This document shows positions 3,167-11,244 of a stretch of 11,288 bases of DNA, piece by piece. The notes under the pieces were generated by a model that did not search any database, was not told where the DNA came from, and saw nothing but the letters and a program-made list of their open reading frames with translations. The translations under genes were made by a program, and so were the position numbers. Source of the stretch: a bacterium (lineage in GTDB: Bacteria; Zixibacteria; MSB-5A5; GN15; FEB-12); the NCBI GenBank assembly GCA_030668045.1, contig DAOUUR010000033.1, positions 1 to 11,288 of the forward strand. The letters run 5' to 3'. Position 1 is the stretch's first letter; each line of letters begins with the position of its first letter.

Positions 3167-3502
3167 TCAGACCGTCACCACGCTTCCTGCAGTCGTGAGA
3201 ACTTCAGCGATCTCCTGCATGTCGCTAATCCGTCCGACTCCCAGACGATCTTTCAACTGGAAATGAACCAGGCAAGTGCCGCACGCGATCAAATCAACAC
3301 CGTCGCCGAACAGACCGTTAAGAGCATCAAGAGAGGCTGAACCTTCGGCCAACAGTTTCACACCTGAATTGTAGAAAACTATCGCATCCGGCTTGGACTC
3401 CTGCGCCCAGAGCTTGCGAAGGAAATTGCCCATCAACTTCTCGCCGAGGGAATCATCACCGGAACCGAAATATTGATTGTTTATTAGAATGACTTTATTC
3501 AT
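3167..3502 (-). CDS. DsrE-family protein, YedF C-terminal-domain-like
   Basis: This 111-residue protein resembles the C-terminal DsrE-like domain of YedF, a sulfurtransferase-like protein linked to selenium metabolism. The diagnostic pieces are NNQYFGSGDDSLGEKLMGNF (residues 8-27) and ACGTCL (73-78), whose Cys74 and Cys77 form the conserved CGTC site. Full YedF proteins are about 190-200 residues with an N-terminal TusA domain that carries a sulfur-handling cysteine; here that domain is absent and the gene begins directly at the DsrE fold. No selD, selA or tusA is visible in the window, so a selenium role is only suggested by family. The ATG at 3502 has AAGGCGAG about 6 nt upstream. It lies 62 nt downstream of the tautomerase gene on the same strand. 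Confidence 0.83.
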   Translation of the reverse strand: MNKVILINNQYFGSGDDSLGEKLMGNFLRKLWAQESKPDAIVFYNSGVKLLAEGSASLDALNGLFGDGVDLIACGTCLVHFQLKDRLGVGRISDMQEIAEVLTTAGSVVTV

Positions 3503-3564: not shown

Positions 3565-3987
3565 TCATTCGTCGGTCATTTCGTAATAGAATTTTCGATT
3601 GGCACATTCATCATACGCGTCCGAGAGAATTTTTCCCCCAACCCCAACATTGTCATAAGGATGCTCGGCGATGTGAATGACCGGTTTCCACTCAGGCTTA
3701 CCAACACCCTCGGTATAGGCGGCGGTTAATGCTTCGACCACCTGAGCCTTGACCTCTTTTCGCAACCGCGGACAGTAGAGCAAAAAGTGCAGGTATGGTC
3801 GACCATCTCCACCATCCCACAACTCACCGGCTGAAGATGCCTTCCCCGGTTCGTACTCAAGAAAGCGAACCCCAAATATCTCAGCACCAAAACCGGTGGT
3901 CGAGACGAACGCATCAGTCAAGCTGCGTGCGAGGTGCCTCCGAGTTTCTTTATCAACCGTTGGAATTGAAATTTCCAGACAAGGCAT
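3565..3987 (-). CDS. Tautomerase superfamily protein, fused double 4-OT-like repeat
   Basis: This 140-residue protein begins MPCLEISIPTVDKETRRHLA, the typical start of 4-oxalocrotonate tautomerase-like proteins, in which Met removal exposes a catalytic N-terminal proline. A second copy of the beta-alpha unit starts at RPYLHFLLY (Pro64), followed by a helix KAQVVEALTAAYTEGVGKPE, like the first helix HLARSLTDAFVSTTGFG. The length fits the fused (about 130-150 residue) branch such as cis-CaaD-like proteins, which form trimers rather than hexamers. A conserved tail IHIAEHPYDNVGVGGK (104-119) is notable. The substrate is unknown. An AAGGAGG overlapping the birA stop codon precedes the ATG, so the gene is probably translationally coupled to birA. 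Confidence 0.85.
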   Translation of the reverse strand: MPCLEISIPTVDKETRRHLARSLTDAFVSTTGFGAEIFGVRFLEYEPGKASSAGELWDGGDGRPYLHFLLYCPRLRKEVKAQVVEALTAAYTEGVGKPEWKPVIHIAEHPYDNVGVGGKILSDAYDECANRKFYYEMTDE

Positions 3988-4005: not shown

Positions 4006-5022
4006 TTAGTCGGAGGCTCTTGGTTTTGCAGAACTGACTGTTACCTCACCGCTGGCGATGGAGGCCTTTCCTTCTTTCGTCCTGAGAACAAGGCGCCCCT
4101 CTCTGTCGATATCAACCGCATGGCCGGTGATCGTGTCGGTTCCCGAGACCAGAGTTACATCGTGACCCAATAGCGATGAGTAAGCTTTCAGACGCGTCCG
4201 AGACCTGGCCAGCCCGTCTTTCTCATATTTTGAATACTCTTTTTCAAATCGCGCCAAGAATCTTTGCAGCAGCAGGACGCGCTGTTCGTTTCGACCGGAG
4301 GCCCGTCGTATCGATGTTGCGTGATCGCGAATGTCGGCAGGGAAATCACCAGCGCGATGATTCACATTGATCCCCACACCGACAATCAGTTGATTTATGG
4401 TTGGACCATCTGCTGAGAGTTCGGTGAGGATGCCAGCCACTTTTTTCCCCTCGATCAAAACATCGTTGGGCCATTTTACCTGAACTTTCCCAAGCATGTA
4501 TTCATTCAGCGTTTCAGAAAGGGCTAGTGCTGTCATGATTGAAATACCGGGGGCCAGTTCGGCGCGGAATTTGGGGCGGAGGATGATTGATACGTAGATA
4601 CCGGCCCCGGGAGGCGAATACCAGCTTCTTCCCAACCTGCCCCGTCCATGAGTTTGTTCTTCGGCGGTGACAACGGTTCCGTCATAGACACCTGCCTCAG
4701 CCAGTTGCGCTGCCATCTCATTGGTCGAGGTTACTTTTCCGAATGCGAAGAAACGTCGGCCAATCAATTTTGTTTTTAGTCCATACGTCATTTCGGTTGC
4801 TGTCAGAAGATCAGGTGCCGACCGAAAACTTATCTCACCTTTCCGTGTCGTATGAATCTTGTAACCCCATTCCTCCAGACGCAACAATGCCTGGATGATG
4901 TCTTCGGGGGGACGGCTGAGTTTACGAGCCAGACCGAAAGTCGTATATGATTTCTCCGGACGTTTACGCAGCACCAACAACAGGTCGTCGGGCAGTTTGT
5001 CTGATGGTGGTTGTTGCGGCAT
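4006..5022 (-). CDS. birA: Bifunctional biotin--[acetyl-CoA-carboxylase] ligase / biotin operon repressor
   Basis: BirA makes biotinyl-5'-AMP and transfers biotin to the lysine of biotin carboxyl carrier proteins; members with an N-terminal winged helix also repress biotin genes. Residues 1-65 fit that winged-helix domain (DIIQALLRLEEWGYKI, then a TTRKGEISF wing). The catalytic domain shows STNEMA, GRGRLGRSWYSPPGAGIYVS (126-145, biotinyl-AMP loop), KWPNDVLIEGKKVAGILTE (183-201) and VGVGINVN (214-221). The C-terminal SH3-like domain occupies about 285-332. The length of 338 residues is normal for class II enzymes. It starts 1 nt after the nadC stop, with no strong ribosome binding site, implying coupling to nadC. 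No BirA operator-like palindrome was recognised in the window. Confidence 0.96.
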   Translation of the reverse strand: MPQQPPSDKLPDDLLLVLRKRPEKSYTTFGLARKLSRPPEDIIQALLRLEEWGYKIHTTRKGEISFRSAPDLLTATEMTYGLKTKLIGRRFFAFGKVTSTNEMAAQLAEAGVYDGTVVTAEEQTHGRGRLGRSWYSPPGAGIYVSIILRPKFRAELAPGISIMTALALSETLNEYMLGKVQVKWPNDVLIEGKKVAGILTELSADGPTINQLIVGVGINVNHRAGDFPADIRDHATSIRRASGRNEQRVLLLQRFLARFEKEYSKYEKDGLARSRTRLKAYSSLLGHDVTLVSGTDTITGHAVDIDREGRLVLRTKEGKASIASGEVTVSSAKPRASD

Positions 5023-5023
5023 T

Positions 5024-5902
5024 CTACTTTGTTACCCTCAGTGAAAAATCGGAGGCGGGGGCTGAATGGGTCAGTGCTCCGCTGGAAATAAAGTCAACAC
5101 CGGTGGCGGCGATTTCGGCCACATTGTCAAGAGTGATATTCCCCGAAGCTTCCAGCTTAACGTTGGGGTTGAGCTTTCTGGCCCGCGCCACTAATTTGCA
5201 TAGAGATTCAACAGATTGATTGTCCAGCAACAGACGATTCGCTCCGGCTGAGATAGCATCGGTGAGTTCAACTTCGTTGGTGACTTCAACCTCAATCTCA
5301 ATCTCTTCGGGTCGGACCTGAAACTGCAACCTGAAATCGTATGAATGAAGAAAGCTTTTAGTTCGCTCAACAGCGGCTCGGACCGAACCGCTGGCGGCGA
5401 TATGGTTATCTTTGATCAGGACCATGTCGTAGAGTCCGATGCGATGGTTCTCCCCGCCGCCGTGCACGACCGCTGCTTTTTCCAGCAACCGCCAGCCTGG
5501 AGTTGTCTTTCGTGTGTCGATAATTCGCGTGTCGTTGCTAATCTTCTGGACAAACCGGTGAGTCAGGGAAGCAATACCGCTGAGATGGGCCAGAAAATTC
5601 AGGGCGGTTCGTTCGGCCACTAAGATTGACTGATTATACCCCACCAACTCGGCAATCGTATCGCCGGGTGAGAAGCGGTCACCTTCTTCTTTGGATAAGC
5701 GCAGTTCGATGGCCGAATCAACAGTCCGAAATGTCATCACAGCGGGGATTAGTCCCGATACGACACCATCTGACTTGGCTACAATCACCGCCTCGATCTT
5801 CTCCGGCTCAAGACAAGCCAGCGAAGTCAGGTCGCCGCGGCCAACATCTTCATCCAATGCGGCCTTGACCAGTTTCCGGGATATTTCAATCAACTCCTGC
5901 AC
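5024..5902 (-). CDS. nadC: Nicotinate-nucleotide pyrophosphorylase (quinolinate phosphoribosyltransferase)
   Basis: NadC converts quinolinate and PRPP to nicotinate mononucleotide, CO2 and pyrophosphate in de novo NAD synthesis. The 292-residue protein has DEDVGRGDLTS (17-27), AERTALNFLAHLSGIAS (96-112), DTRKTTPGWRLLEKAAVVHG (129-148) leading to GGENHR and VLIKDNH (161-167), LLLDN (224-228), EASGNI (251-256) and ISSGALTHSAPASDFSL (272-288): all expected substrate-binding elements are intact. There is a modest insertion around 183-200 before the EIEVEV strand. The start is a GTG at 5902 with no Shine-Dalgarno sequence; a TTGACT lies at a -35-like distance but the -10 (TCTCTT) is poor. nadA and nadB are not in the window. 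It is the first gene of the minus-strand run with birA directly behind it. Confidence 0.96.
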   Translation of the reverse strand: MQELIEISRKLVKAALDEDVGRGDLTSLACLEPEKIEAVIVAKSDGVVSGLIPAVMTFRTVDSAIELRLSKEEGDRFSPGDTIAELVGYNQSILVAERTALNFLAHLSGIASLTHRFVQKISNDTRIIDTRKTTPGWRLLEKAAVVHGGGENHRIGLYDMVLIKDNHIAASGSVRAAVERTKSFLHSYDFRLQFQVRPEEIEIEVEVTNEVELTDAISAGANRLLLDNQSVESLCKLVARARKLNPNVKLEASGNITLDNVAEIAATGVDFISSGALTHSAPASDFSLRVTK

Positions 5903-5923: not shown

Positions 5924-5952
5924 TTGGAAAAAGTCAAATACGAAATTATATT
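5924..5952 (+). promoter_or_regulatory. Promoter of the IlvC-like gene
   Basis: TTGGAA (5924-5929) is separated by 17 bp from TATATT (5947-5952). The predicted transcription start (about 5959-5960) coincides with the ATG at 5960, so the mRNA is probably leaderless. This placement also argues against the upstream in-frame TTG at 5924, which would be part of the -35 box. Confidence 0.5.
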
Positions 5953-5959
5953 AACTACC

Positions 5960-6904
5960 ATGAAGCGTACTCGGAAAAAGCCAAAAACGGTCGGTGTCAT
6001 AGGTTATGGTTCGCAGGGACGCGCCGTTGCCCTCAACCTGCGGGACTCCGGATATGACGTGATAGTCGGACTCCGCCCGCGTTCCCGGTCAAAACGAGCT
6101 GCCATCAAAGACGGGTTTTCGGTCGAGAGTATCCCATCAACGGTAAACAATAGCAACATCGTCGCCTTTGCTTTCCCCGACCATTGCCACAGGCAGGCTT
6201 ACCGGGAATATATCCGGGAAAATCTTTCGAGAGGAAGCTTGCTGCTGTTCCTGCACGGACTGTCGATTCATTTTGGTCTGGTTGTGCCGCCCGCCGATTG
6301 TGACGTAGTCATGATCGCACCCCACGGGCCCGGCAATGCCGTGCGGGAGAAATTTCTGACTGATCGCACTCTCTCGGCATTCCTGGCCGTCCATCAGGAC
6401 ACTACCGGCCACGCCGAGAAGATTGGCCTGCAGTTGGCTCGTGGTATTGGAATTGCAAAAAAGCGTCTGGTTACGACGACTTTCGAGCACGAAGCAATAG
6501 GCGATCTCTTTGGCGAACAGGCCGTTCTCTGCGGTGGGCTGGCGGCATTGATCAAGAACGGGTTTGAGGTCTTGGTCGATAAAGGTATTCCCCCTGAAAA
6601 CGCCTATCTTGAGGTTGTCTATCAGCTCGATTTGATTATCGACCTGATCAAACAGCATGGGATCGAAGGGATGTTCAACCGGATCTCGGTCGCCGCTCAA
6701 TACGGTTCGGTCAAGAGTGGGCCGACAATCATTGATAAATCGACTCGCAAGAAGATGGAGAAAGTAGCTGACCGTATTGTCTCCGGCAAGTTTGTCCGAG
6801 AACTTGACAGCCTGACCCCAGCCGACATCCGGGAGCTCGGTAAATCGGTCCGGAAATTGACCAACCCTAAGCTTGAAAAAGCTGCCCGCAAGTTTACAGA
6901 GTGA
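5960..6904 (+). CDS. Divergent ketol-acid reductoisomerase (IlvC) homologue with altered active site
   Basis: The 314-residue protein matches class I ketol-acid reductoisomerase over most of its length: VGVIGYGSQGRAVALNLRDS (11-30, NADP-binding Rossmann fold), GLRPRSRSK (37-45, basic/serine phosphate-binding loop suggesting NADPH), LHGLSIHFG (98-106), VMIAPHGPG (117-125), GDLFGEQAVLCGG (181-193) and SGPTII (253-258). True IlvC isomerises and reduces acetolactate for Val/Leu/Ile synthesis. Two normally invariant positions differ: the catalytic lysine of APKGPG is His122, and the second metal-binding glutamate of the HELK motif is Gln222 (YQLDL). Asp182, Glu186, Glu218 and Ser243 are kept. The C-terminal tail is also unlike IlvC. 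No ilvB, ilvN or leu genes are near. It is likely a paralogue with another substrate or chemistry. ATG 5960 is preferred over TTG 5924 (36 nt upstream). Confidence 0.82.
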   Translation: MKRTRKKPKTVGVIGYGSQGRAVALNLRDSGYDVIVGLRPRSRSKRAAIKDGFSVESIPSTVNNSNIVAFAFPDHCHRQAYREYIRENLSRGSLLLFLHGLSIHFGLVVPPADCDVVMIAPHGPGNAVREKFLTDRTLSAFLAVHQDTTGHAEKIGLQLARGIGIAKKRLVTTTFEHEAIGDLFGEQAVLCGGLAALIKNGFEVLVDKGIPPENAYLEVVYQLDLIIDLIKQHGIEGMFNRISVAAQYGSVKSGPTIIDKSTRKKMEKVADRIVSGKFVRELDSLTPADIRELGKSVRKLTNPKLEKAARKFTE

Positions 6905-7150: not shown

Positions 7151-9142
7151 ATGGATAAATTTTCCCAAAGACTTACCGCTGTGGTTATCTTGGTGCTGTT
7201 TGCCCTGATTGCCTATTTCCTGTGGGATCATTTCCGTGACAGGAGTATCGAGGAGCAGCTTTCCGAGATCATTCTCGATGAAGACCGTCGCGAACTAACC
7301 GAACGTCTCGAAAAATACTTGCAGGCCGAGGACCCCGATGTACGAGGGCGGGCTGCTCTAGCAGTTGGTAGAATTGGCGCGCGCGGGAGCGGTGCGTTGC
7401 TGATTGATATGATCTATGATGCGAACCTTGATGTAGCGGCTACCGCAGCATTTGCATTGGGTCTTACCGATGAAAAAGGGTATGCTTCCCACTTGGTCGA
7501 TTTGGCCAACGACCTTCCCTCGGCGGTCGCATTCCGGGCGGTTGAAGCGGTCGGACGATTGGCCGACAGCGCGATGTATGATGTTGCCCGGCAACTGGTT
7601 GAAATGTTGCTGCATCCATCGCCAGAGGTACGCGAAGCGGCCTGCATGGCAATCTATCGAGCCGGAGCGAAATCAAAGGCGCCAGCACTACTGGCGTTTG
7701 TCGCTGGCGAAGAAGACCGACCGGTGCGAAAAGCCGTGCTGTACACCCTGGCCCAGTTTGGTTACGAAGAGGCCGCACCGCTGTTTGAAGAATACCTCGC
7801 CGATTCCGACCCGTTCGCACGCGCTACCGCCGTGCGAGGCCTGGGTAAGTCCAAAGCCGCCAGCGCTGAACACTATCTGGCCATAGCCATGAACGATTCT
7901 GACCACGGTGTTGTTGCCGGTGCCATAGCCCAACTGGGTGGATTTGAAACTGTCGCCGCCAAGCAACAATTGGCCGAACGATTAGAACGCGAAACCGACG
8001 AAAAACTGATAATTGCTCTAATGCAGGCGATTCAACGCCAGAACAGCGCTATCGGCGCGGCGGAAGTTCGCAGCAAACTAACCAACTACACATCACCGGG
8101 AATTGTGGCCGCCGGTCTCAAATGCCTTGGAGCGGTAACCAAAGATCGAGCCGTTATCAATATCGATTCATTGACCACGCGTGAGATTCCATACATTCGT
8201 GCCGCTTGTGCTGAGGCATACGGCTTGATCGGGATGGAGAATATCATTTCTCGACTCGCTGTTCTTTCCAGCGATGAAGACGGCATGGTGCGCACCGCCG
8301 CTCTGATTAGCCTGATCAAACTTGATACCGCCAACACAGATTTCCATTTCAACAAAGCGCTGACCGATCAGGATTTTGTAGTCGTCGTTACCGCCGTGGA
8401 GCACATCAGAGACCATCTGCTGACCGAGTATCTGCCGGTGTTGAATACGATCATGTCGCGCGGCCCGGCAATTGATGTTGACATCCGGCGCACCATTGTG
8501 GAAACTGCCGGAGCATTCCTTGAAGAGAACATCAACGACACCACGGCGCATGACATCCTTGTGCAGGGAGTTTTTGATCAGGACTATGTTATTCGTCGAA
8601 CCGCCGCTGAGATTTATCGCGATGTTCTCCAGCAGGATCGATTCAATCTGGTTCCTCCGGCTGCAACATGGTTTGGAATCGGGGCGATCGAAGATGCGCT
8701 GCACAAATACAAGATCAATCCTTATGCCGCCATTGTCACCGAGAAGGGTACCGTTGAGATGGAACTCTTTTTCGATGTTGCTCCCTTGACCGTGCTCAAT
8801 TTTATTCGACTGGTCGAAGAAGAATTTTACAATGGACTGATTTTCCATCGTGTCGTACCCGGATTTGTTGTTCAAGGTGGTGATCCGCGCGGCGATGGTT
8901 GGGGCGGGCAGGGACGCTATATGAGGTGCGAGTATTCAATCGAACCGTACATCCGGGGAACGGTTGGTGTCGCCACCTCGGGCAAAGATACCGGCGGCTC
9001 TCAGTTTTTTGTTACGTTAGCTCCACAACCGCATCTGGAAGGCCGCTACACAGTCATGGGACAGGTGATCGCCGGCATGGAAGTTGTCGATCAACTGGTC
9101 TATGGCGATCAAATCCTGAAGATAGAAATCAGGGAGAAATGA
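7151..9142 (+). CDS. Membrane-anchored HEAT-repeat protein with C-terminal cyclophilin-type peptidyl-prolyl isomerase
   Basis: A 663-residue protein in three parts. Residues 9-25 form one hydrophobic helix (LTAVVILVLFALIAYFLW), an uncleaved anchor probably placing the rest in the periplasm. Residues about 45-500 are alpha-solenoid HEAT repeats of roughly 30-35 residues, with recurring DPDVRGRAALAVGRIG-, SPEVREAACMAIYRAG- and DPFARATAVRGLGK-type units. Residues about 525-660 are a cyclophilin domain that isomerises prolyl bonds: FHRVVPGF (565-572), VVQGGDP, GGSQFFVT (615-622) and LEGRYTVMG (629-637). The catalytic Arg567, Gln575 and Phe619 equivalents are present; the position of the usual His126 (human CypA numbering) is Tyr633, as in many bacterial members. 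It is the first gene of a three-gene operon and lacks a Shine-Dalgarno sequence. It is likely an envelope protein-folding or assembly factor; clients are unknown. Confidence 0.93.
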   Translation: MDKFSQRLTAVVILVLFALIAYFLWDHFRDRSIEEQLSEIILDEDRRELTERLEKYLQAEDPDVRGRAALAVGRIGARGSGALLIDMIYDANLDVAATAAFALGLTDEKGYASHLVDLANDLPSAVAFRAVEAVGRLADSAMYDVARQLVEMLLHPSPEVREAACMAIYRAGAKSKAPALLAFVAGEEDRPVRKAVLYTLAQFGYEEAAPLFEEYLADSDPFARATAVRGLGKSKAASAEHYLAIAMNDSDHGVVAGAIAQLGGFETVAAKQQLAERLERETDEKLIIALMQAIQRQNSAIGAAEVRSKLTNYTSPGIVAAGLKCLGAVTKDRAVINIDSLTTREIPYIRAACAEAYGLIGMENIISRLAVLSSDEDGMVRTAALISLIKLDTANTDFHFNKALTDQDFVVVVTAVEHIRDHLLTEYLPVLNTIMSRGPAIDVDIRRTIVETAGAFLEENINDTTAHDILVQGVFDQDYVIRRTAAEIYRDVLQQDRFNLVPPAATWFGIGAIEDALHKYKINPYAAIVTEKGTVEMELFFDVAPLTVLNFIRLVEEEFYNGLIFHRVVPGFVVQGGDPRGDGWGGQGRYMRCEYSIEPYIRGTVGVATSGKDTGGSQFFVTLAPQPHLEGRYTVMGQVIAGMEVVDQLVYGDQILKIEIREK

Positions 9143-9143
9143 G

Positions 9144-9944
9144 ATGAAGAATAGAATCATCCTATACTCGTTTATCCTACTTGTCATGCTAACTGCATCG
9201 GTCGCAGGTAACAACACCGACGCCATCGACCCGTCGGCTCTGATCGAACGAATTCTGACCGTTGATTCGGAGCAGAGATCTAAGATCAATGACATCGTTT
9301 TCGATGCTGAGTTTATCGAGAAGAACAAAGACGGTACGGTCAAGGCCCGCTTTACCAAAAAGATATATCTGAAATACCTGCCCGACACGGTACTCTACCA
9401 CGAGCAGTATCTTGAGTACTACAAAGACGATAAATTGCAGAGCGACAAAGACTGCGATGGTCAGGCGAAAGAACGCAAGGAAAAAGCGACCAAGCGTAAG
9501 GCCAAGAATATCTCGCATTCGATGTTCACGCCGTTTCTTGCAGAGAATGCCGACAAGTACGAAATCACCTACGAGGGTGTGGTCACCGAAGAGGTAACTG
9601 GTTTTGTCTGCCACCATTTCAAGGTGCAGGCGGTTGAAGAGTCAGCCGAATACATCAACGGCGATTACTACTTCGAGGCCGAGTCGTTCCATTTGGTGCA
9701 GGTTGATTTCTCTCCGGCCAAGCTGGTTCGAAAAACGATGTTTAAGTTATACGAGCTAAACATCTCCGTGACGTATGGCGCGACCGCCGAAGGTTACTGG
9801 CTTCCACAGCAGGCCGATATTTCTGGTCGTGGGAAGGCGATGTTTATCATTGGTGTCAATTTCGCCAGTACCGAGTACTACCGCAACCCGGTCATAAATG
9901 GCGGGGTGGACGATGATATATTTTCAGGAGAGAATAATGAGTGA
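9144..9944 (+). CDS. Secreted protein, possibly LolA/LolB-like outer-membrane lipoprotein-sorting fold
   Basis: A 266-residue protein with a clear signal peptide (KNRIILYSFILLVMLTASVAG, cleavage near residue 22). The mature part, with many alternating strands (for example TVKARFTKKIYLKYLPDTVL, FVCHHFKVQAV, YYFEAESFHLVQVDF), is suggestive of the half-barrel LolA/LolB fold in which strands report on cofactor- or lipid-binding, but no family motif is decisive. A highly charged lysine-rich stretch (about residues 100-122) breaks the strands. It starts 1 nt after the HEAT/cyclophilin stop, with AGGGAG just upstream, and its last 8 nt overlap the next gene, so all three are translated from one mRNA. 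Working next to a periplasmic prolyl isomerase suggests an envelope role (inference). Confidence 0.68.
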   Translation: MKNRIILYSFILLVMLTASVAGNNTDAIDPSALIERILTVDSEQRSKINDIVFDAEFIEKNKDGTVKARFTKKIYLKYLPDTVLYHEQYLEYYKDDKLQSDKDCDGQAKERKEKATKRKAKNISHSMFTPFLAENADKYEITYEGVVTEEVTGFVCHHFKVQAVEESAEYINGDYYFEAESFHLVQVDFSPAKLVRKTMFKLYELNISVTYGATAEGYWLPQQADISGRGKAMFIIGVNFASTEYYRNPVINGGVDDDIFSGENNE

Positions 9945-10595: not shown

Positions 10596-10961
10596 CTATA
10601 ACTGGCTGCGCCAGTTTTCGATGGCGGCGCGGATGGCGTCGGGGGCCAGGTTGGAGCAGTCTATTTTGTGATCGGGTAAACCATCCAGCATTTCGGCCAC
10701 ATCGGCGCGGGTAAGAGCTGCGGCTTCTTCAATCGTCTTGCCGGTTACGATTTCCGATGCCGCCGAGCTGCATGCAATCGCGGCGGCACAACCGAACGTC
10801 TTGTGTTTCACTTCGACCAGTCGACCGTCGGTAACTTTGATATACATCTTCATCACGTCCCCACACTCGGGGTTGCCGACCGAGCCGACCCCATCGGCGT
10901 TTTCTATCTCGCCGGTGTTGCGGGGGTTCTTAAAATGATCCATGACCGTCTGGTTATACAT
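10596..10961 (-). CDS. NifU/IscU-type iron-sulfur cluster scaffold protein
   Basis: A 121-residue scaffold on which Fe-S clusters are built from sulfur supplied by a cysteine desulfurase. The start MYNQTVMDHFKNPRN is canonical for the family, so ATG 10961 is used although the frame stays open to 11222. The three cluster-ligand cysteines are present: Cys33 (GNPECGD), Cys58 (KTFGCAAAIACSS) and Cys102 (IDCSNLA); the conserved aspartate of CGD is also present. The residue before Cys102 is Asp where IscU has His. The protein is one IscU-like domain without the ferredoxin or C-terminal NFU domains of full NifU. No nifS/iscS lies beside it here. It has no Shine-Dalgarno sequence and a TAAATT box 8 nt before the ATG. 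It is convergent with the adenosine-kinase operon. Confidence 0.93.
   Translation of the reverse strand: MYNQTVMDHFKNPRNTGEIENADGVGSVGNPECGDVMKMYIKVTDGRLVEVKHKTFGCAAAIACSSAASEIVTGKTIEEAAALTRADVAEMLDGLPDHKIDCSNLAPDAIRAAIENWRSQL
10600..10616 (-). terminator. Hairpin at the 3' end of the NifU-like gene
   Basis: A perfect 6-bp stem AACTGG/CCAGTT with a 5-nt loop lies within the last codons of the NifU-like gene. Little T-run follows on the minus strand (ATAGATTGCC), so intrinsic termination is uncertain; it could protect the 3' end of the mRNA or be chance. Confidence 0.3.
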
Positions 10962-10969
10962 AGGCAAAC

Positions 10970-10997
10970 AATTTACGCATCCATCCGCAAAAGGCAA
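10970..10997 (-). promoter_or_regulatory. Candidate promoter of the NifU-like gene
   Basis: On the minus strand TTGCCT (10997-10992) lies 16 bp before TAAATT (10975-10970), and the ATG follows 8 nt later. The -10 box and its distance to the start codon match the promoter of the methyltransferase at 735-740. This again predicts a leaderless or nearly leaderless mRNA. Confidence 0.45.
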
Positions 10998-11215
10998 CGG
11001 CAATGTTGTGGGAGATGATGTCAGACAGACTGAATCCAGCCAATCCGTGGTTGCCTGCGGTATCGACACAGATAGGCCCGGCTTCAAGAGCGGGCGCCAT
11101 TCCCGCTGATCGTCGCCTTGAGCGGAGTCGAAAGGCAGCATACTGCTTTTAGGTGACGTGGCAACGCGACTCTGCCGTACCGGATAGGATGGCCGCGCAT
11201 AACACAACTCTGGTA
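10998..11215. other. Non-coding region upstream of the NifU-like gene
   Basis: No gene is supported in this stretch. It holds a GCCCG/CGGGC hairpin with a 10-nt loop (11076-11095) and dispersed repeat copy B. The minus-strand frame is open but its translation runs through the repeat and has no family look, so I treat it as untranslated. Confidence 0.6.
11116..11157 (+). repeat. Dispersed intergenic repeat, copy B
   Basis: CCTTGAGCGGAGTCGAAAGG followed by the hairpin GCAG-CATA-CTGC and TTTTAGGTGAC. Compared with copy A the stem has changed one T-A pair to C-G on both sides, which keeps the pairing. Confidence 0.8.
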
Positions 11216-11244
11216 TTGACAACGTTGTCTATATTCGTTATATT
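11216..11244 (+). promoter_or_regulatory. Strong sigma-70-type promoter reading out of the window
   Basis: A perfect TTGACA (11216-11221) is 17 bp from TATATT (11239-11244), close to consensus. Transcription would start near 11251 and run right. The target is outside the window; an ATG at 11281 lies about 30 nt downstream but has no Shine-Dalgarno sequence and only three visible codons' worth of sequence, so it cannot be confirmed as the gene start. Confidence 0.65.
11218..11229. promoter_or_regulatory. Palindromic operator candidate
   Basis: GACAACGTTGTC is a perfect 12-bp palindrome overlapping the -35 box and the spacer of the promoter at 11216-11244, the right position for a repressor site. 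A central CG flanked by AA/TT half-sites resembles LacI-family operators, which is an inference from motif shape only. Confidence 0.45.

Follow-up and report, generated by a model that had tools for sequence, protein, structure and literature searches.

A ketol-acid reductoisomerase variant found in most examined Zixibacteria genomes and predicted to serve as ketopantoate reductase

The window, by which the whole stretch of 11,288 nucleotides analysed here is meant, corresponds to contig 495 of a 3.03 Mb Zixibacteria assembly (genome G000; 93.9% complete, 4.8% contamination). It carries a gene for a protein related to ketol-acid reductoisomerase (KARI, IlvC), next to which nadC and birA are located in the opposite orientation (Table 1). 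An in-frame TTG at position 5924 is a possible alternative start of the KARI-like reading frame. The statement of a first-pass annotation of this DNA, that no branched-chain amino acid genes lie nearby, agrees with Pfam and NCBIfam searches, which recognised none among the window proteins scanned. Several other reading frames of the window could be assigned. The one at 7151-9142 encodes a HEAT-repeat domain fused to a cyclophilin-type peptidyl-prolyl isomerase (Pfam). Members of its cluster are located close to the KARI-like gene in 18 loci of family f1 and seven loci of family f4, often together with a second protein (9144-9944 in the window) that has no Pfam match. A YedF-like selenium-metabolism protein (3167-3502) covers model positions 85-193 of 194, its N-terminal half being missing, and in a protein of 140 aa (3565-3987) the tautomerase match is confined to the C-terminal part (Pfam, residues 64-123; NCBIfam DmpI, residues 71-123), no family being assigned to the first half. 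The reading frame at 10596-11222 encodes a NifU/IscU-type Fe-S scaffold (TIGR03419, 176 bits, under the cut-off) with about 88 extra N-terminal residues, and its true start is probably internal.

The surroundings of the KARI-like gene differ between families. The divergent pair of nadC and birA is found upstream of it in f1, f2 and f3, a gene for orotate phosphoribosyltransferase (recognised by eye) in f5 and f10, and pdxJ (one member named by family search) in f9, while endonuclease III (by eye) is located downstream in f2. A conserved operon therefore fails as a clue to the substrate, and as only few neighbours were checked against the family library such a clue may have been missed.

Table 1. 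Positions within the window of the KARI-like gene, its cofactor-binding and active-site residues and its neighbours
Feature	Position	Strand	Basis or remark
KARI-like (IlvC-type) reductase, 314 aa, predicted ketopantoate reductase	5960..6904	+	ORF (start ATG at 5960, stop ends at 6904), Pfam, NCBIfam, AlphaFold2 model, fold matches
Rossmann NADPH-binding motif, residues 9-22, KTVGVIGYGSQGRA	5984..6025	+	Gly15, Gly17, Gln19 and Gly20 invariant in 40-row alignment
Cofactor-phosphate loop RPRSRS, residues 39-44 (Arg39, Ser42, Ser44)	6074..6091	+	alignment
His122 codon, position of E. coli Lys155	6323..6325	+	His, Leu, Met or Ala in members read, never Lys
Glu178 codon, position of E. coli Glu213, kept	6491..6493	+	115/115 readable genomes
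Asp182 codon, bridging metal ligand, E. coli Asp217, kept	6503..6505	+	115/115 readable genomes
Glu186 codon, metal-I ligand, E. coli Glu221, kept	6515..6517	+	115/115 readable genomes
Glu218 codon, metal-II ligand, E. coli Glu389, kept	6611..6613	+	114/114 readable genomes
Gln222 codon, substitutes metal-II ligand E. coli Glu393	6623..6625	+	Gln in 114/114 readable genomes
Ser243 codon, position of E. coli Ser414, kept	6686..6688	+	113/113 readable genomes
nadC (quinolinate phosphoribosyltransferase), divergent neighbour	5024..5902	-	TIGR00078 over cut-off
birA (biotin-protein ligase), adjoins nadC	4006..5022	-	TIGR00121 over cut-off

The protein is a class I KARI (IlvC) homologue; its relationship to KARI had already been recognised in the first-pass annotation. 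It contains both KARI domains (Pfam KARI_N, 8e-53; KARI_C, 9e-39) and passes the curated ilvC cut-offs of NCBIfam (NF004017: 344.6 with a cut-off of 336; TIGR00465: 302.6 with a cut-off of 226.15). A confident AlphaFold2 model (mean pLDDT 93.7) shares the KARI fold: the best 50 PDB matches listed by Foldseek were all KARIs (query-normalised TM 0.82-0.93, identity 37-45%), three of them being labelled AHIR or acetohydroxy acid isomeroreductase, a synonym of KARI. The domains of the PanE/ApbA family were not found in the protein, with the N-terminal ApbA match staying below the Pfam cut-off (20.1 bits, cut-off 22.2) and ApbA_C being absent in Pfam. The different C-terminal tail that had been claimed was confirmed partly: the TIGR00465 alignment stops at residue 283, but those of NF004017 and Pfam KARI_C reach residue 311. 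Where homologues have a public name, it is mostly 'ketol-acid reductoisomerase'.

Alignment to the IlvC of E. coli places His122 at Lys155, Asp182 at Asp217 and Glu186 at Glu221, and alignment to class I KARIs places Glu218, Gln222 and Ser243 at the Glu, Glu and Ser of this class, which correspond to Glu389, Glu393 and Ser414 of the E. coli enzyme. The exchanges of the catalytic Lys155 for His122 and of Glu393 for Gln222, on which the first-pass annotation was built, were thereby confirmed, and so was the retention of Asp182, Glu186, Glu218 and Ser243, with the same residues occurring in the best 120 homologues listed. Two active-site features of a KARI are hence lacking, namely the catalytic lysine (no Lys in 115 readable genomes) and a full two-metal site (Asp, Glu, Glu, Glu), of which three ligands are kept and the fourth is Gln222. 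Lys155 and Glu393 form the pair that is usually tied to alkyl migration in KARI. In a study of the E. coli KARI by Tyagi and co-workers (FEBS J, 2005) several active-site mutants reportedly lost the isomerase and retained the reductase activity. No ketopantoate-specific feature was identified in the active site of the window protein.

For the class I KARI of Sulfolobus, passages of PMC5940873 describe one Mg2+ on the bridging Asp191 and Glu195 and a second Mg2+ on Asp191, Glu227 and Glu231. In the KARI of Methanothermococcus the second ion is, according to passages of PMC8615647, bound by Asp191 and Glu231, with Glu227 being distant. As Gln222 stands at the site equivalent to Glu231, metal I should stay intact and metal II should be weakened. 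Acidic residues in the cofactor-phosphate loop are named in a passage of PMC5940873 as the mark of NADH users, and from its residues we infer that the RPRSRS loop is of the NADPH type. The earlier proposal that binding of NADPH and probably of metal is retained is consistent with the kept NADPH fold and with most of the metal ligands being kept.

Neither exchange is peculiar to the window protein, and their recurrence goes far beyond chance. The phylum set consisted of 132 Zixibacteria genomes, of which 117 contained a KARI-like match and 116 could be scored. Position 122 was His in 89 of these, Leu in 25, Ala in one and unreadable in one, Lys being absent; position 222 was Gln in 114 and unreadable in two, with no Glu. 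Asp182, Glu186, Glu218, Glu178 and Ser243 were constant in all readable genomes across 18 families, and position 99 (His132 in E. coli) was relaxed (His 100, Cys 6, Ala 4, Ser 3 in 113 readable genomes). Protein searches gave a similar picture. Among the best 120 homologues listed in one search, all had His122 and Gln222, and a second list of the best 120 contained 119 His and one Ala at position 122 and Gln at position 222 throughout. Of 328 proteins, a set formed by the overlapping best-120 lists from three protein searches, 306 combined a non-Lys residue (His, Leu, Met or Ala) with Gln and 21 combined Lys with Glu; the one unreadable case (P0280) is a fragment of 223 aa with no alignment at the second site. 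The pair of Lys155 and Glu393 thus appears, as far as can be read from the sequences, to have been exchanged as one unit for non-Lys and Gln across the phylum. A universal general acid at position 122 is ruled out, because Leu, Met and Ala occur there. Two further signatures of the clade, neither of them fully fixed, are E[AT][VIL]GD, which replaces ETETD before the bridging Asp, and Tyr-Gln-Leu-Asp, which replaces His-Glu-Leu-Lys.

A scan of a collection of genome contigs returned, among the best 80 loci listed, 79 with Lys and Glu, and the sole exception was another member of the Zixibacteria. Nearly all named proteins of the non-Lys/Gln type among the matches listed come from this phylum as well. 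The exceptions by name among these matches are metagenome bins assigned to Deferrimicrobium (P0082), Terriglobales (P0164), Limisphaerales (P0243) and Verrucomicrobiae (P0250). The family may extend beyond the Zixibacteria. The name of P0250 may be a misassignment.

A separate clade, as had been suspected, was indeed recovered: in a quick tree, a single branch (SH-aLRT 100) divides 91 Zixibacteria proteins from 79 canonical ones, with many inner branches being weak and the root serving only for drawing. Leu at position 122 requires at least three changes on this tree. The natural reading would be a single functional change early in the history of the phylum, after which position 122 drifted and position 222 did not. 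What we describe is a real, phylum-wide KARI variant, and the clade very probably performs a chemistry different from that of canonical KARI.

The term paralogue, which the first-pass annotation had used, did not stand. In its genome (93.9% complete) the search for a canonical ilvC yielded no KARI homologue besides the window protein, and a paralogue beside a normal ilvC is thus ruled out. A single KARI-like match was present in 104 of the 117 matching genomes, and the extra matches in the other 13 were partial or weak. One of these, a partial match to positions 233-315 in the single-contig genome G022 (C1:688979-689227), occurs in addition to the full gene and is perhaps a decayed or rearranged copy.

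The pathway to which a KARI would belong could not be recognised in the phylum. The gene ilvD was found in none of the 132 genomes by a search that was positive in 14 of 14 control genomes, and ilvB over the cut-off was likewise found in none of the 132 and in all 14 controls; the KARI-like protein does therefore not stand between a recognised acetolactate synthase and a dihydroxy-acid dehydratase. Weaker relatives of acetolactate synthase below the ilvB cut-off were present in 123 of the 132 genomes, in 45 of them with more than 250 bits, the strongest being that of G117 (505 bits with a cut-off of 538). The window genome itself encodes such an acetolactate-synthase-like protein (contig C410, 304 bits, under the ilvB cut-off) and has no ilvD. 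A changed function would be contradicted if this were the sole ilvC of an organism able to grow with no branched-chain amino acids supplied; this case seems not to apply here, because ilvD and ilvB over the cut-off are both missing from the 132 genomes.

The genes of pantothenate synthesis are widespread. panB was found in 118 of the 132 genomes (113 over the cut-off; controls 11/14) and panC in 122 (114 over the cut-off; controls 9/14). The reductase of the step between them is mostly not recognised: panE passed the cut-off in 16 of 132 genomes (170-244 bits), and below the cut-off there was one N-terminal partial match of 66.5 bits (G024), all others reaching at most 38.8 bits. The panE search has its limits: at E <= 0.001 its matches, mainly weak ones, extend to 92 of 132 genomes, and of 14 well-known control genomes 13 give a match but only eight pass the cut-off. 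A check for ApbA_C in 12 chosen genomes found this domain in G020 and G022 and not in the other ten, G000 included (controls 8/14). The KARI-like gene is present in 117 of 132 genomes and occurs together with panB and panC in 103 of them; 91 of these 103, again including G000, lack panE over the cut-off. Both panB and panC are found in 103 of the 117 genomes with the KARI-like gene and in nine of the 15 others (Fisher p = 0.012, confounded by completeness). In G000, panB and panC are over the cut-off, panE gives only a 20-bit partial match and ApbA_C is absent, which leaves the reductase step open as judged by PanE and ApbA_C. PanG of Francisella is another type of ketopantoate reductase. The KARI-like gene forms no operon with panB or panC, which in G000 are located on contigs 162 and 604.

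Genus g8 contains both arrangements: in G021 (70% complete) the KARI-like gene is present without a panE over the cut-off, and G020, from which the KARI-like gene is missing, gives the best PanE match of the phylum (244 bits). Relatives of this PanE with solved structures carry the name ketopantoate reductase or 2-dehydropantoate 2-reductase. Genomes without either reductase also occur and speak against a ketopantoate reductase role of the KARI-like protein: G018 (100% complete, about 40 contigs) and six further genomes (71-83% complete) contain panB and panC and neither the KARI-like gene nor PanE. G083 lacks the KARI-like gene, panC and PanE. The PanE-like proteins of the 16 genomes are of two types, with 15 sharing one family (50-64% identical to the G022 member) and that of G020 being distinct (20-24% identical to the other 15).

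The presence of panB and panC together with the lack of ilvD, ilvB and panE over their cut-offs suggests, on grounds of genome content, ketopantoate as the substrate, which the first-pass annotation had left unnamed. In this pathway the pantoate step appears open, next to a single 2-keto acid reductase from a family weakly able to perform it. The KARI-like gene is therefore predicted to encode a reductase-only KARI, which probably serves as the ketopantoate (2-dehydropantoate) 2-reductase of pantothenate and coenzyme A synthesis; that the protein plays no isomerase role is very likely. In the proposed reaction, Mg2+ on Asp182 and Glu186 would chelate the 2-keto acid, hydride would be transferred from NADPH to C2 and the proton would come from a metal-bound water or from Glu178. 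Alkyl migration, which should require an intact two-metal site and the Lys/Glu pair, would be lost, and it would be dispensable because ketopantoate already is a 2-keto acid. The product of KARI and D-pantoate are both 2R, so attack on the same face would be expected. The 2-ketoisovalerate needed by PanB could be derived from imported valine via an aminotransferase; class IV aminotransferases, the group that includes the branched-chain aminotransferase, were found in all eight chosen genomes, G000 among them.

Reduction of ketopantoate by an IlvC is not without precedent. According to passages of PMC4306246, IlvC of Salmonella and E. coli shows a limited ketopantoate reductase activity, and growth of an E. 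coli ilvC panE mutant is restored by the ilvC of Buchnera, that of E. coli allowing very limited growth. The IlvC of Corynebacterium glutamicum is described in passages of PMC4353338 as making up for absent panE; the C. glutamicum control genome of this study does match ApbA_C. The two activities of KARI, isomerase and reductase, can be assayed separately according to the same source (PMC4353338), and the reductase is said to accept various 2-keto acids (passages of PMC5940873). A search of the open-access literature found no paper on KARI in Zixibacteria.

The strongest rival to the prediction of a ketopantoate reductase is that the protein is likewise a reductase-only KARI and acts on another 2-keto acid (2-ketoisovalerate, hydroxypyruvate or an unknown metabolite) and not chiefly on ketopantoate. 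We consider this unlikely, and it has several observations in its favour. Eleven genomes carry the KARI-like gene and no panB match, among them G125 (100% complete) and G059 (96%). In addition, 14 of the 117 genomes with the KARI-like gene also encode a PanE-like protein, in which Asn98, Lys176, Ser244 and Glu256, catalytic residues of E. coli PanE, are kept, and reduction of ketopantoate would be doubled there. The neighbours nadC, birA, pdxJ, pyrE and nth (the last two recognised by eye) belong to no single pathway, and the KARI reductase is, in the passages cited above, broad for 2-keto acids (PMC5940873). Another substrate would, however, leave the pantoate step without an enzyme recognised by the panE search in the 91 genomes that have the KARI-like gene, panB and panC and no panE over the cut-off.

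Far less probable is a working branched-chain KARI with unusual active-site residues. The protein passes the curated ilvC cut-offs and is the sole KARI found in its genome, and the acetolactate-synthase-like proteins of more than 250 bits in 45 of 132 genomes, including the one of 304 bits in G000, might supply the preceding step. Yet the searches for ilvD and ilvB mean that the next enzyme is missing and the preceding one at best doubtful, and the lysine position drifts to Leu, Met and Ala, and one metal-II ligand is Gln in every member read. The loss of two residues named as catalytic or metal-binding could also point to a non-catalytic regulatory or structural protein, but this is the least probable reading of all, as the constancy of Asp182, Glu186, Glu218, Glu178 and Ser243 across 18 families is hard to explain without catalysis.

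Compared with class I KARI (IlvC, EC 1.1.1.86), the Zixibacteria proteins thus agree in their domains, fold, NADPH motif, Asp/Glu/Glu metal ligands and Ser, but differ in having His, Leu, Met or Ala for Lys155 and Gln for Glu393, in E[AT][VIL]GD instead of the usual ETETD, in a variable position of E. coli His132 and in the lack of ilvD in 132 genomes. With the dual-role IlvC of C. glutamicum and Buchnera they would share, if the predicted role is correct, the use of a KARI fold for the ketopantoate step without panE (passages of PMC4353338 and PMC4306246). In these passages the dual-role proteins are described as branched-chain enzymes with a second substrate, whereas in the Zixibacteria that pathway was not found and two residues are exchanged relative to E. 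coli IlvC. PanE/ApbA (EC 1.1.1.169) catalyses the reaction predicted here, and KARI and PanE/ApbA are both families of the 6-phosphogluconate dehydrogenase superfamily (PMC4353338), but the C-terminal domain of PanE differs and the window protein has no ApbA_C.

Returning to the ketopantoate reductase, we regard it as rather likely that the phylum lost branched-chain synthesis, kept its KARI, shed the isomerase function when two active-site residues were exchanged in an all-or-none manner and reused the reductase for ketopantoate and coenzyme A; a bifunctional enzyme would thereby have been split in nature. The protein would act in the manner of known moonlighting IlvC enzymes and, as it lacks two active-site features and the pathway context that characterise KARI, should not be called a ketol-acid reductoisomerase short of an assay. 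Since it passes the ilvC cut-offs and public names are mostly those of KARI, automatic models would credit a branched-chain step to a phylum without detected ilvD. If the prediction is true, the open pantoate step would be filled in 91 of the 132 genomes examined. The family would then also be a natural source of sequences with the reductase half freed from the isomerase half, and two-residue swaps would allow a test of how labour is divided within the KARI active site.
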